The position numbers and the translations under genes are program-made. 64,000 bases of DNA from an uncultured Mediterraneibacter sp. (GTDB lineage Bacteria > Bacillota > Clostridia > Lachnospirales > Lachnospiraceae), in NCBI RefSeq assembly GCF_944377805.1, contig NZ_CALWFZ010000003.1, positions 114,714-178,713 of the forward strand. The letters run 5' to 3'. Every line of letters starts with the position of its first letter. The first letter of the stretch is position 1. Below, in pieces: positions 7,091-64,000 of the stretch. The notes beneath the pieces are model-generated. The model made no database searches and was not told the DNA's origin. It worked only from the letters and a program-made list of their open reading frames with translations.

Positions 7091-8470
7091 ATGGGAATAT
7101 TAAAAAAGAGAGTAAACGAATTTCCAACGCCATATACTTGCGCGAGAGCGATTCAAGAGGGGGGACCTGAGACAAAACTCTCTATGGTTTTGATGGGACT
7201 TGGAAATATTGTTCATGGCCAGGTAATAAAAGGCCTTTTATATCTGACGGTGGAAGTGGCATATATCGTATTCATGATTATGGCGGGAGCGAACTGTATC
7301 GCCATGCTTCCATCGCTTGGGAGCGTTGCCCAGGAAGAAGTGTGGGATGAAGCGCAGCAGATCTACACTTATACAAAAGGAGATCAGTCCATTTTGATCC
7401 TTCTCTTTGGCGTGGCGACCTTGATCATTACATTTCTCGTTGTATGCGCCTGGCGCGGAGCGCTCAGAAGCGCATATAAAGCAGAGCGCCTTACAAAGGA
7501 AGGAAAGCATGTAAATAATTTCGCGGAGGACCTAAAGAGCCTGCTTCATGAAAATTTACACAGGATTCTCATGACGCCTCCGATGTTCTTTATCGGAGCT
7601 TTTACAATTCTTCCGCTGATCTTTATGATCTGCATGGCATTTACAAATTACAGTAAGATCGACAGTCATCTGATGCTCTTTGACTGGGTGGGGCTTGACA
7701 ATTTTAAAGCGCTGTTTGACTCTTCGAGCATCCTTGGGAGTACCTTCTGGTCGGTGCTCGGCTGGACTCTTGTCTGGGCGTTTTTCGCAACGTTTTCCAA
7801 CTACATATTCGGCATGATCGTATCGCTTCTGATTAACCGCAAAGGAACGAGAGCAAAAGGATTCTGGAGATTCTGCTTCGTGCTCTCCTGCGCGGTGCCG
7901 ATGTTTGTATCACTGCTTATCATGCGGACTATGCTCCAGCCGGAAGGCGCTATCAATGTGCTGCTGAGAAATCTGGGGCTGATCGCGCAGGACGCCAGTC
8001 TTCCGTTTTTTACTGATCCGACTTGGGCCAGAGTGACCGTCATTATCGTTAACATCTGGGTCGGCGTTCCATACACACTGCTGCAGCTTACCGGTGTGCT
8101 TCAGAATATCCCTGCGGAACTTTATGAGGCGGCAAAGGTGGACGGCGCCAACGCATTCCAGATCTTTACAAAGATCACGCTGCCGTACATGCTGTATGTA
8201 ACGACTCCGTATCTGATCGTTACGTTTACAGGAAACGTCAATAATTTTAACGTCATCTATCTGCTTTCCGGCGGAGATCCCGTTACGGATCTGTCGTCAA
8301 CGGCAGGCAAGACTGACCTGCTGGTAACATGGCTGTATAAGCTGACCATTGATAAACAGTATTACAATATCGGAGCGGTTATCGGTATTCTCACCTTTGT
8401 AATTCTCGCGATCGCGGCTCTGCTTACTTATCGCAATACAAAGTCATACAAAGAAGAAGGAGGGTTCTAG
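7091..8470 (+). CDS. MalF-like ABC sugar permease
   Basis: The 459-residue protein has an N-terminal pair of extra helices (roughly residues 30-130) typical of Firmicute MalF homologues, then a six-helix permease domain. The ATPase-contact EAA loop reads YEAAKVDGANAFQIFTKITLP. I use the ATG at 7091 instead of an in-frame ATG at 7061, because the latter lies inside the binding-protein gene and a GAGGTGA site precedes 7091. It forms the membrane channel with the next gene product. Confidence 0.93.
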   Translation: MGILKKRVNEFPTPYTCARAIQEGGPETKLSMVLMGLGNIVHGQVIKGLLYLTVEVAYIVFMIMAGANCIAMLPSLGSVAQEEVWDEAQQIYTYTKGDQSILILLFGVATLIITFLVVCAWRGALRSAYKAERLTKEGKHVNNFAEDLKSLLHENLHRILMTPPMFFIGAFTILPLIFMICMAFTNYSKIDSHLMLFDWVGLDNFKALFDSSSILGSTFWSVLGWTLVWAFFATFSNYIFGMIVSLLINRKGTRAKGFWRFCFVLSCAVPMFVSLLIMRTMLQPEGAINVLLRNLGLIAQDASLPFFTDPTWARVTVIIVNIWVGVPYTLLQLTGVLQNIPAELYEAAKVDGANAFQIFTKITLPYMLYVTTPYLIVTFTGNVNNFNVIYLLSGGDPVTDLSSTAGKTDLLVTWLYKLTIDKQYYNIGAVIGILTFVILAIAALLTYRNTKSYKEEGGF

Positions 8471-41019: not shown

Positions 41020-42222
41020 ATGGGTAAAGATTTAAAGGGCAGAGACTTAGGCAAAGGGATTTCTCAGAGAGCAGACGGACGATTTATCGCAAGATTTACA
41101 AGCAGGACAGGAAAAAGGATTACGCTCTACGATTTCAAACTGAATGAATTAAAGAGAAAACTGCGTGAAGCGATTTATGAAGATGAACATGGTTTGAACG
41201 GCAATGGAGAAAGTATTACCTTAAATGCGTGGTATGTGACGTGGACAGAGCTATACAAAAAGAAAACCGTTAAAATGACGACAATCTATAAGAACCACAG
41301 TTACTATAACGCAAGGGTGAGAGATTCTATCGGAAAAATGTATTTGCAGGATATAAAAACCTATCACGTTCAGAAATTTTTGAATGACCTGTTGGACAGC
41401 GGACTTTCTCACGGGACGGTTTCTAATATCCGGTTTATGCTGAGTGATATGTTTGATAAGGCGATATTGAGCGAATACATTCGGAAAAATCCCTGTGTCG
41501 GCGTAGAAATGCCAAAAGAAGTAAAGACAGAACGGCGTGTATTATCCAGAGAAGAACAGGAAAAATTCTTTTCTTTTGCGTCTTCTTACATACATATCAA
41601 TGTTCTGAAGTTTGCTGTTACAACAGGATGCCGGATTGGAGAGATACTTGGGCTGAAATGGGAAGACTGTGATTTTGAAAGACGTGAAATCACAATCAAC
41701 AAAACAATCCATTATTCAAAGGCTTCCAGTCCTGTCGAGGGTTCAAAATTCTTTTATACAACGGCGAAGACGGAATCGAGCAACCGTGTTATTCCTATGA
41801 CGGACGAAGTATATGGAATTTTACAGAATCAGAAGATAAAGCAGACAGAACAGAAGATGTGGAAACGGTCTTTATGGAAACAGCATAAGGAATTTAAGAA
41901 TCTCGTGTTTACCAGCGAAGACGGTTCGCCGATTTATTACAGTAATATCAACGGAGCGATTAAGGACTATATAGCGAAAATCAACGTGGTGGAAATCGCA
42001 CTGGCGAAAGAAGAAAAACGAGAGCCACAGATTTTCAAGCCCTTTACCTGTCATACTCTGCGACATACATACGCTACAAGGTGTTATGAAAATGGAGTAG
42101 ACCAACAGGTAGTGCAGAAGTTGTTAGGTCATTCTTCGCTGGCAATGACAACAGATTTGTACACGCATGTATCAGAAAACAGGAAAAAAGAAGAAGTAGC
42201 TGAATTGAAAATTCTGGCTTAA
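41020..42222 (+). CDS. int: Tyrosine recombinase integrase (Tn916 Int family)
   Basis: The 400-residue protein has an N-terminal arm-binding domain ([27 protein letters not shown], about 13-40), a core-binding SAM-like domain (about 65-165) and a catalytic domain with Arg in [15 protein letters not shown], the [11 protein letters not shown] box and Tyr in LYTHVSEN. All catalytic residues are present, so it should be active. The ATG at 41020 follows GAAAGGA; the upstream TTG at 40969 lacks a site. The gene ends 75 bp from attR. Arm-type repeats lie immediately after its stop codon. Confidence 0.95.
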
Positions 42223-61695: not shown

Positions 61696-61707
61696 AATAG
61701 ATAGAAA

Positions 61708-61747
61708 AAGAGTACAGATGTGCAATCGAACATTTGTACTCTTTTTT
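61708..61747 (+). terminator. Terminator of the nucleoside operon
   Basis: The stem aagagtacagatgt pairs with acatttgtactctt, followed by a T run. A diverged duplicate of this terminator and the next 35 bases lies at 63169-63241. Confidence 0.87.
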
Positions 61748-61805
61748 GTTGTTGTTCTATATACTTTTATCTTTATATTTGCTGATGGAGAATTAGACGA
61801 GAATT

Positions 61806-61832
61806 CAGTTATTCGAAAATTTCGAATAACTG
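61806..61832. repeat. Perfect 27-bp palindrome
   Basis: cagttattcgaaa and its exact inverse are separated by one base. It lies in a 300-bp stretch (61760-62060) without any recognisable gene. It could be a dimeric regulator site or a recombination remnant. Confidence 0.55.
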
Positions 61833-62063
61833 CTTCAGATGGAAAAAGGGTTGATTCTCCGAGAGTGGTTCAGTTCTGAAAATGGGGGAATGGAATTATA
61901 GAAGAGTTCACGATAAAAGGTTGGGAGGAGCTGTTATATTATATGTTGAAGAAGCTCTAAAGTAGAATATTCATGTCAATACTTTGTATTGCGCTACGAT
62001 TAATATTTTGCGACTTTTCTTATCCAAATTGTGAAGAGTCCAATCTGAGGCAGCGCTTTTATG

Positions 62064-62278
62064 ATTTTGACATTTTCGTTACGAATGATTTTTTTCCGAA
62101 CAATGCCGTAGAGTACTTTGTCTCCTAGTGTGCCGGAGGCGGAAAATGAGGTATGTCTGGTGCTTTTTCGTGCTGTTCAGTCCAGATTTTGTGGACAGAA
62201 TAGGATGAAACGGACTGGATGATACCAGGTGGACAAAATGATTTTGTGACTTTTGGCAGGAAAAATTCGTAATAAAAT
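62064..62278 (+). repeat. Duplicated junction region, copy A, with a decayed uvrB remnant
   Basis: 62064-62098 matches the upstream region of uvrB (63356-63387). 62092-62128 matches codons 79-90 of uvrB (ccgaacaatgccgtagag...). 62127-62278 matches the foreign sequence that follows the uvrB break at 63708. The first ~78 codons of uvrB are missing from this copy; the two parts meet at a short run of T residues. It therefore looks like an internally deleted version of copy B. Confidence 0.75.
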
Positions 62279-62293
62279 GGAGTGAGTATTTTA

Positions 62294-62431
62294 GTGAGTA
62301 AAAATAGATTTGAAACAGTAAATGGCAATGTAAACATTTTGCGTGATGACTGGAAACAGTGTGCTCAAGTAACATATTACTTTATGATTGCTGATGATGC
62401 AGGTATTATAGTGATAAATAGATGTTGTTAA
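62294..62431 (+). CDS. Short ORF of unknown function (45 aa)
   Basis: A GTG-initiated frame encodes 45 residues (VSKNRFETVNG ... ADDAGIIVINRCC) just upstream of the DUF2185 gene. GGAG lies 11 bases before the GTG. The codon use is A/T-rich like its neighbour. It may be the tail of a truncated gene or not translated at all. Confidence 0.3.
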   Translation: MSKNRFETVNGNVNILRDDWKQCAQVTYYFMIADDAGIIVINRCC

Positions 62432-62465
62432 ATTCCAATTTGTTTAACAGATTAGAGATGGAAAT

Positions 62466-62864
62466 ATGGGTTTAATTAATAAGAAAAAGAGCGAGTTTAT
62501 TAAAATTAAGGTTGAAGATTTAATTGAATGGAATGAGCCGAATGGTGCAGGCTGTATGGTATCTGATAGAATAACTAAAGAGGGATTTAAGGTTGGATAT
62601 ATGTATAGAGAACAACCAAGTGAACAGAACCCTGATAGTGGTTGGAGATTTATGGCAGGCAATGAAGATGATGAATATATGAATAATCCGAATAATCCGA
62701 ATAATCATCATATATTTGCAATCAATACAATATGCAATTATGATAAAGATATAATTCCTTATATTCATTCTAAAATTGGAAGTTGCTATATACGAGTTGA
62801 TAGTAATAAATTTGAAGTAGATGATGGCACAAAACCAATTTGTGTTGAAAAACAAAAGAGATAG
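62466..62864 (+). CDS. DUF2185 (Imm33-like) immunity-type protein
   Basis: The 132-residue acidic, cysteine-poor protein has the DUF2185 pattern: GAGCMVSDRITKEGFKVGYMYREQP, then DSGWRFMAGNEDDEYMNNP, then HHIFAINTICNYDKDIIPYIHSKIGSCYIRV. DUF2185 proteins are often found as immunity partners (Imm33) of polymorphic toxins. No toxin gene is seen here, so this would be an orphan immunity gene. It is strikingly A/T-rich and located inside the uvrB-associated insertion, which fits acquisition by transfer. GATGGAAAT precedes the ATG. Confidence 0.65.
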   Translation: MGLINKKKSEFIKIKVEDLIEWNEPNGAGCMVSDRITKEGFKVGYMYREQPSEQNPDSGWRFMAGNEDDEYMNNPNNPNNHHIFAINTICNYDKDIIPYIHSKIGSCYIRVDSNKFEVDDGTKPICVEKQKR

Positions 62865-63009
62865 TCAAATTTATGATTTACCAGTACAACAGAATATTTG
62901 AATGACTGCAAACATCGTAGCAATACGGTGTTTTTTTGTTATCCAAAACCCTACAATACATTACATAACCACAGGTTAGTACAAATACCTTGTGTGGAGT
63001 ATTTATTAC

Positions 63010-63153
63010 ATGGTCAAAAAGTGCAAGAGAATATCTCTAATATTTATAATGATGGCACTGTCGATAGTTATTGTCTTTGCACAGGCAAGTGTGGCTAAAG
63101 GAAATAGACGAGGCAGCCGAGGAATATTTAATGGCAGCATGACAACAATATAA
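63010..63153 (+). CDS. Short secreted-peptide ORF (47 aa)
   Basis: The ATG at 63010 opens a frame for 47 residues with a good secretion signal: basic MVKKCKR, the hydrophobic stretch ISLIFIMMALSIVIVF, and AQASVA followed by a basic mature part KGNRRGSRGIFNG. A cleavage site after ASVA would leave about 18 residues, strongly basic. TGGAG lies about ten bases upstream. It may be a secreted peptide or the start of a truncated secreted protein. Confidence 0.4.
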   Translation: MVKKCKRISLIFIMMALSIVIVFAQASVAKGNRRGSRGIFNGSMTTI

Positions 63154-63264
63154 GGAAGAAATCATAAAAAAGTACAGATGCACACTCGAACATTTGTACT
63201 TTTTTTGCTTTTCGACCTATATACTTTTATCGTTATCTTTGTTATAATGTCCGAAAAGGGCAGA

Positions 63265-63327
63265 GTCAGATATATGCAAGGCAGACTGCCATGCTTGCAT
63301 GAGCAGTCGGTATTGTATGTATCTGAC
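63265..63327 (+). other. Long imperfect stem-loop upstream of uvrB
   Basis: The 25-base arms gtcagatatatgcaaggc... (63265-63289) and ...gtatgtatctgac (63303-63327) pair with about five mismatches around a 13-base loop. It lies between the TATAAT box and the uvrB start, so it would be in the mRNA leader. It is absent from copy A. Confidence 0.5.
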
Positions 63328-63438
63328 GAGCGAAGCGGAGTCCTATAAGGCTATTATTTTGACATTTCCGTTACGAATGATTTTTTTGAGAGTGGCTGAT
63401 ATTGAACATATCAAAAGCCACAAAGGAGAGAGTTTATT

Positions 63439-63711
63439 ATGGATCATTTTGAACTAATATCAGAATACAAACCAACCGGCGACCAGCCCCAGGCGATCGA
63501 GGCGCTTGTAAAAGGGTTCAAAGAAGGCAACCAATGTCAGACACTTCTGGGTGTTACCGGCTCCGGTAAAACTTTCACGATGGCAAACGTCATCCAACAG
63601 TTACATAAACCTACATTGATCATCGCACACAATAAGACTCTGGCTGCACAGCTCTACGGCGAGTTCAAGGAATTTTTTCCGAACAATGCCGTAGAGTACT
63701 TTGTCTCCTAG
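63439..63711 (+). pseudogene. uvrB: uvrB, 5' fragment interrupted after codon 90
   Basis: The 90 residues are an excellent UvrB N terminus: [27 protein letters not shown], Walker [18 protein letters not shown], and [33 protein letters not shown]. Normal UvrB (about 660 residues) continues YYDYYQPEAY at this point; here TCC is followed by TAG and unrelated sequence. AAAGGAGAG precedes the ATG, so the fragment can be translated. UvrB is the damage-verifying helicase-like subunit of nucleotide excision repair. The rest of the gene, if present, must lie beyond the window, probably behind an inserted element. Confidence 0.9.
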
Positions 63712-64000
63712 TGTGCCGGGGACGGAAAATGAGGAATATCTGATGTTTTTTCGTGCTGTTTAGTCCAGATTTTGTGGACAGTATAGGACGAAACGGACTG
63801 GATGATACCAGGCGGACAAAATGATTTTGTGACTCTTTGCAGAAAAAATTCGTAATGAGATTAGATATAGAAAGTGCAGTAGCATAGAATGAGTAGTTGC
63901 GTAATATAATATAGGTACATAGTATGGTGGTTGAAACACGGAAAAATTCTGACTTGCTTTTTTTAGAGTTTTTGCTATACTATGTATAGAAGTAAATGTT
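63708..64000 (+). mobile_element. Left end of an element inserted in uvrB (continues past the window)
   Basis: From the uvrB break the sequence (tagtgtgccgg, ggaaaatgagg, gatgataccagg) matches 62127-62278 for about 150 bases, then differs. The same foreign end next to two uvrB remnants indicates a site-specific insertion point. No ORF is complete before the window edge. Confidence 0.6.
63954..63989 (+). promoter_or_regulatory. Promoter with palindromic operator at the right edge
   Basis: TTGCTT (63954-63959), 16 bp, TATACT (63976-63981). The palindrome ctatac-tat-gtatag (63975-63989) covers the -10 box, a likely repressor site for the first gene of the inserted element. Confidence 0.5.

Follow-up and report, generated by a model that had tools for sequence, protein, structure and literature searches.

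Organization of the uvrB region

The window, a stretch of 64,000 nucleotides covering positions 114714–178713 of contig C3, ends together with its contig, in a genome of 2.28 Mb assembled into 45 contigs. The features described here from punA to the end of the window lie on its plus strand. Directly 3' of punA there is a terminator block (61704–61781) in which the terminator scan placed a first terminator at 61704–61747, and which has 81–86% identity with the right ends of elements in related genomes. An earlier note on this DNA had reported that the punA terminator region is repeated, and this was found to be so, with 61706–61781 recurring at 63166–63241 (83% identity) and 62060–62095 recurring at 63352–63387 (94%). 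A decayed RhuM gene at 61718–61924 (51% identity to the RhuM protein of locus L052 by tblastn, E-value 1.65e-18), presumably once carried by an older cassette, is followed by the remnant of a uvrB upstream region (62060–62095), 97% identical to a right end found in Drancourtella massiliensis An770 (G350), and by a remnant of uvrB itself comprising codons 79–90 (62090–62125, at an offset of 1583 to the intact copy). The two remnants meet in a run of T, consistent with loss of the DNA between the T-runs that an intact copy has at 63381–63387 and 63673–63678.

The uvrB remnant runs into a left end, LE1 (62126–62275), which opens with the stop codon TAG and is matched by left ends in relatives. 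The cargo behind it, and the only cargo within the window itself, is one Imm33 immunity-type gene (62466–62864; PF09951, E-value 1.5e-33). No toxin partner is visible for this gene, and its relatives on Priestia megaterium plasmids are annotated as DUF2185. Further along the cassette are the last 15 codons and stop of a tyrosine recombinase gene, int2 (63095–63142), whose product LKEIDEAAEEYLMAA is identical to residues 415–429 of Int2 of G350; the DNA of 63095–63250 is 96% identical to the right end of that genome. Terminator block 2 (63166–63241) also matches the G350 right end, as does the uvrB upstream region that the element supplies, with its ribosome-binding site (63337–63438; 92% identity over 63337–63444).

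Codons 1–90 of uvrB, the front supplied by the Imm33 cassette, occupy 63439–63708 and match PF04851. The ORF (63439–63711) encodes 90 amino acids ending in VEYFVS and then stops at TAG, which bears out the claim of the earlier note that uvrB is cut after codon 90. The likely recombination core lies around TTTGTCTCCTA at 63698–63710, on the basis of the junction comparison described below. Beyond it is a second left end, LE2 (63709–64000), belonging to the next element and cut by the contig end. The same foreign end thus follows both the remnant and the longer copy, as had also been claimed: 62084–62278 and 63667–63861 are 91% identical over 195 nt and, outside uvrB, 62126–62275 and 63709–63858 are identical at 136 of 150 bases. 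The last part of LE2 (63875–63998) has 83% identity with the DNA adjoining the first left end of a congener, Clostridium sp. Marseille-P3244 (G425, NZ_LT635549).

The rest of the source genome

Contig C2 of the same genome opens with a third copy of the block, consisting of part of the terminator block, the upstream region and the whole of uvrB, which is intact (661 aa) and followed by uvrA. Over 260 bases its right end shares 98.8% identity with that of G350, a member of another genus. In the source genome the left end was detected at the two window sites only and right-end sequence on C3 and C2 only. At least three right ends are present, namely the remnant behind the decayed RhuM gene, that of the Imm33 cassette, and the one on C2 which serves uvrB. 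Contigs C3 and C2 are likely to be neighbors. No intact recombinase of the int1/int2 family was found in this genome at an E-value of 1e-30, only the int2 tail. The arrangement of punA beside uvrB was not seen at the other uvrB loci examined.

Junction and probable integration site

The junction was surveyed in 29 distinct orphan contexts and 87 whole ones, a match being required to reach at least codon 86, which confines the survey to breaks in this part of the gene. TA directly follows codon 90 in 28 of the 29 orphan contexts; the continuation TAGTGTGC occurs in 18 of them, and the remaining ones have different left ends. A few share up to two further codons with uvrB. The use of one site by several left ends argues for site-specific recombination over a single old event. 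Arm-type repeats common to left and right ends were rejected as a feature, six right ends scoring no higher than the best of 200 shuffles.

Elements and arrays in related genomes

When 397 genomes of the family were searched for the left end, 36 had a match, many through the 30 uvrB bases of the query alone; matches longer than 50 nt were found in 13 genomes, the source of the window among them. Within the genus, a match to the uvrB 5' end was obtained in 47 of 58 genomes. Orphan copies that end at codon 90, one or more per genome, occur in 13 of the 58, each confirmed at the junction. G028, G035, G191, and G152 present a truncated uvrB copy, then 3–5 kb of cargo, then a whole uvrB. The distance from the orphan copy to the whole gene is 216 kb in G104 and 128 kb in G025. 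For several cassettes no recombinase remnant was found.

The congener G425 holds a whole array inside one 2.6 Mb contig, with three copies of uvrB codons 1–90, a left end after each, one partial copy running into N and a cassette with a recombinase tail at its end. A stretch of about 78 kb then follows, at whose end lie two intact recombinase genes, a terminator block and a whole uvrB. This stretch encodes a relaxase (PF03432), a coupling protein (PF02534) and a VirB4-like ATPase (PF19044), together with ParA and a MobC/NikA-like protein, so that the gene set of an ICE is present alongside int1 and int2. None of relaxase, coupling protein and VirB4-type ATPase occurs in the Imm33 cassette of the window. 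A serine recombinase is also encoded by the G425 element, about 44 kb away from uvrB. The check proposed in the earlier note was to look to the right for an integrase, and then for a further terminator and uvrB 5' copy joined to codon 91 onward. This order was found in one contig of G425; in the genome of the window the further copy is seen only across the contig gap, on C2, and the recombinase not beyond its 15-codon tail.

A partial uvrB 5' copy is also present elsewhere in G425, 226 kb from the array (L176, 1346000–1360000 of its contig C3, at about 7286–7512), and ends at a run of N. This copy and the distant orphans of G104 and G025 hint that uvrB 5' repeats may take part in chromosome rearrangement.

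Searches of the viral_contigs set with int2 and with one exact junction pattern detected no excised, circular or viral form, and the plasmid collection gave no excised form, only two distant integrases with 27–29% identity to int2. Of eighteen phage records with uvrB similarity, four were examined and rejected, as all of them run past codon 90 as ordinary uvrB. These four (MT835502, MT839146, MT837487, and Moraxella phage Mcat6 KR093630) contain an ordinary bacterial uvrB with its neighbors and probably include or consist of host DNA.

The twin recombinases

In G350 the adjacent genes int1 (408 aa) and int2 (429 aa) form a pair, both products matching PF00589 (tyrosine recombinase). In full elements the pair sits about 300 bp ahead of the replacement uvrB 5' end; an integrase gene is thus present in relatives at the end bearing the replacement front, where the window retains the 15-codon tail only. 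When named genomes were scanned with int2, 25 loci with 47–100% identity emerged, two of them from NZ_LT635549, and a uvrB 5' end lies 148–452 bp downstream of int2 in all 25. In a second set, which overlaps the named loci in part, 21 of the 24 matches that have sufficient flanking sequence and reach 45% identity or more stand before uvrB, compared with 0 of 2 at 36–45% and 1 of 20 below 36%. The exceptions among the 24 close matches (L112, L116, and L118) have no uvrB within 1.5 kb. Since adjacency to uvrB is usual at close int2 matches and rare at low identity, the choice of target goes with the int2 recombinase family.

At L124 (G367), uvrB is directly preceded (offset 393) by an integrase only 27% identical to Int2, which may represent a second route to this target. 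The window itself has another tyrosine-recombinase-like gene at 41128–42189, far from uvrB, with 23–24% identity to int1/int2.

Mosaic structure of uvrB

The uvrB gene of C2 was found to be a mosaic. Its DNA identity to G350 is 96.7% over codons 1–90 and 75.8% after, and to G028 94.8 and 73.3%, respectively. The corresponding values against congeners are 69.6 and 84.7% (G441), 72.6 and 83.1% (G401), 97.4 and 83.4% (G308), and 84.8 and 84.2% (G397), and the outcome of such a comparison depends on the congener's own front. A breakpoint scan of G000 against G350, G028, and G308 placed the change of identity at codons 83–94 with log-likelihood gains of 28–43, compared with gains of 2.5–16 at other or wide positions in seven control pairs. 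The breakpoints in pairs with G425 are less clean (ranges of codons 40–119 and 109–118). Over 13 named loci, two of them with broken recombinase frames, a partial Mantel test controlling for the remainder of uvrB links the distance in uvrB codons 1–90 to that of int2 (0.60; a value this high in 4 of 2000 permutations). No such link is seen for the remainder of the gene (0.00; 905 of 2000).

The element-supplied front is in frame with the host 3' part, giving a whole mosaic uvrB both on C2 and in relatives. The exchanged part includes the Walker A motif GVTGSGKT (residues 38–45) and stops just short of YYDYYQPEAY, a stretch conserved in the solved UvrB aligned, which we take to be the beta-hairpin of the protein.

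The supplied upstream region and cargo genes

The earlier note had proposed that elements enter uvrB at TTTGTCTCCTA bringing a terminator, a promoter and codons 1–90. Entry is backed by the whole elements of relatives, by the 25 of 25 recombinase loci beside uvrB and by the identity change at codons 83–94, and it is an upstream region that is brought, with the promoter a putative one; the sigma-70 scan found no match for uvrB upstream of the gene, and 6 sites in the region vs. 9.4 expected. Transcription of uvrB would presumably start from this supplied region. A GAACNNNNGTTC-like site with at most one mismatch occurs between int2 and uvrB in 21 of 23 right ends (shuffle mean 2.2), counted on loci L191–L214 (e.g., L204, L205, and L207), whose rows are related, and against simple shuffles. 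The site is perfect in three distant right ends and is also seen in four of nine uvrB upstream regions of a comparison set. Its two occurrences in the window (61728–61739 and 63188–63199) overlap the terminator hairpin. We take these sites to resemble the Gram-positive SOS box, and their presence in right ends may be regarded as a lead only.

Ten chosen cargo proteins, rather than the whole cargo, were scanned with PADLOC models. Matches were obtained to, among others, Avs5 in G398, LmuB in G425, AriAB in L052, and PDC-S05 (RhuM) and PDC-M28C in L048, with candidates PDC-M62A/B and PDC-S02 in L058 and a weak PDC-M69C in L047; these are names of models, and the functions are predicted ones. Among the cargo of G441 are NADAR and DUF3990 proteins. 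Elements of this kind often bear anti-virus defense genes and can accumulate one after another next to uvrB.

Proposed mechanism and alternative explanations

The best explanation of the locus, and one we hold with considerable confidence, is that the window displays the left-hand portion of a row of elements, all from one uvrB-specific family, that have integrated here. Observed directly are the junctions and right ends, the tail of the recombinase gene, the mosaic nature of uvrB and, in related genomes, complete elements. Recombination would take place at a short core around TTTGTCTCCTA (codons 87–91), so that host codons 1–90 become joined to the left end of the element, usually meeting a stop at once, and the element's codons 1–90 become joined to host codon 91 onward. 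In this manner uvrB would remain whole with its first seventh foreign. The twin recombinases are the inferred catalysts of this exchange. As each insertion would rebuild an intact site beside the 3' part, the site could be used again, and age should rise away from the 3' part, with newer insertions nearer to it and older ones decaying outward. The leftmost copy in the window is the most decayed one, which fits this order, but the sequence of events in the row is deduced, as is the link between C3 and C2. The view of the earlier note that the original uvrB 5' end decayed beside punA is probably wrong. The remnant is probably the right end of an older cassette and not the host's original 5' end, because the decayed RhuM gene separates it from the punA-side terminator, and because that terminator resembles right-end terminators.

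In one rival account, considered unlikely, the elements are the same, but the growth of rows and the spread of cassettes are due chiefly to homologous exchange among copies of the uvrB 5' part (Campbell-type integration by way of 270 bp plus flanks), and a site-specific step occurred only in the ancestor. The uvrB 5' copies do form long direct repeats, and both the cassettes lacking a recombinase remnant and the less clean breakpoints of G425 would be accommodated. However, several unrelated left ends start at the same base after codon 90, and the fronts of neighboring copies differ by up to 30%, making them a poor substrate for such exchange. An assembly artifact at a repeat where both contigs break is less probable still. 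It is suggested by the fragmented genome, by C3 ending and C2 beginning at this repeat and by the two partial copies in G425 that end at runs of N, but the same arrangement lies inside contigs of 2.6–3.2 Mb in G425, G035, G191, and G414. The alternative raised in the earlier note, a simple tandem duplication of the punA–uvrB interval followed by deletions and without mobile elements, would explain why the blocks are repeated in the same orientation, but it leaves unaccounted for the recombinase tail and cargo between the copies, and fronts that are nearer to other genera than to some congeners. Given also that the same junction is found in many genomes and that the recombinase–uvrB association contradicts it, we regard this reading as having almost no likelihood.

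Within the preferred explanation of a row of uvrB-specific elements, a further step may tentatively be proposed, though we think it somewhat improbable as a whole: uvrB codon 90 would serve as a shared docking site at which the twin recombinases encoded by resident conjugative elements act in trans on cassettes that have no recombinase, the upstream region being possibly SOS-responsive. The small cassettes would then consist of a left end, anti-phage or toxin–antitoxin-like genes and a uvrB front only. If so, gut Lachnospiraceae would trade defense systems by way of this gene, and in doing so would exchange time and again the first 90 residues of UvrB, Walker A motif included.

More generally, the first 90 residues of a universal DNA-repair enzyme, including its ATP-binding motif, appear to be swapped across genera by mobile elements, and uvrB marks a site where gut bacteria stack defense genes. 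Caution is needed with uvrB trees and, for this group, with uvrB genes regarded as "truncated" or "duplicate", which blend host and element history. The site would also be suited to studying how a tyrosine-recombinase pair acts within a protein-coding sequence.

Comparison with known systems

It is known that SCC cassettes form rows at one site inside a conserved gene, rlmH, some of them without a recombinase, and that they use large serine recombinases (Ccr) and the 3' end of their target. The uvrB elements differ in having tyrosine recombinases (PF00589), and not a serine recombinase, at the site and in entering the 5' part of the gene. No element integrating in uvrB was found described in the open-licence PMC literature searched, nor was the combination of uvrB target, 90-codon replacement, twin recombinases and rows of defense cassettes found in the open-access literature searched; in the relevant parts of PMC7466150, PMC10732058, and PMC3408451, uvrB appears as cargo or as an expressed gene.

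Replacement of a 5' end by an integrating element is already known from SXT in prfC and from dusA islands. The ICE SXT is cited as replacing the 5' end of prfC (PMC8409611), its hosts being Vibrio and E. coli; the passage in that source mentions neither a recombinase pair nor rows of cassettes. The streptococcal ICEs likewise belong to Firmicutes, have tyrosine integrases and target the 5' ends of housekeeping genes, namely ftsK, rbgA, and ebfC (PMC4701971). That text does not name uvrB, and the direct repeats given there are 12–54 bp, compared with the 270 bp of target plus upstream region carried by the uvrB element.

The dusA islands, as described in the pertinent sections of two reports, are similar to the uvrB elements in that they, too, enter a conserved gene near its 5' end and provide a replacement 5' coding sequence (PMC4482086). 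IMEVchUSA3, integrated at dusA, also supplies a working promoter (PMC8409611), and a tandem case with two integrases in one partner has been reported at this gene (PMC4482086, PMC8409611). They differ in their target and in their hosts, which are Proteobacteria. The exchanged part of DusA is described as free of residues with a known role in cofactor or tRNA binding (PMC4482086), whereas the exchange at uvrB covers 90 codons with the Walker A motif among them.
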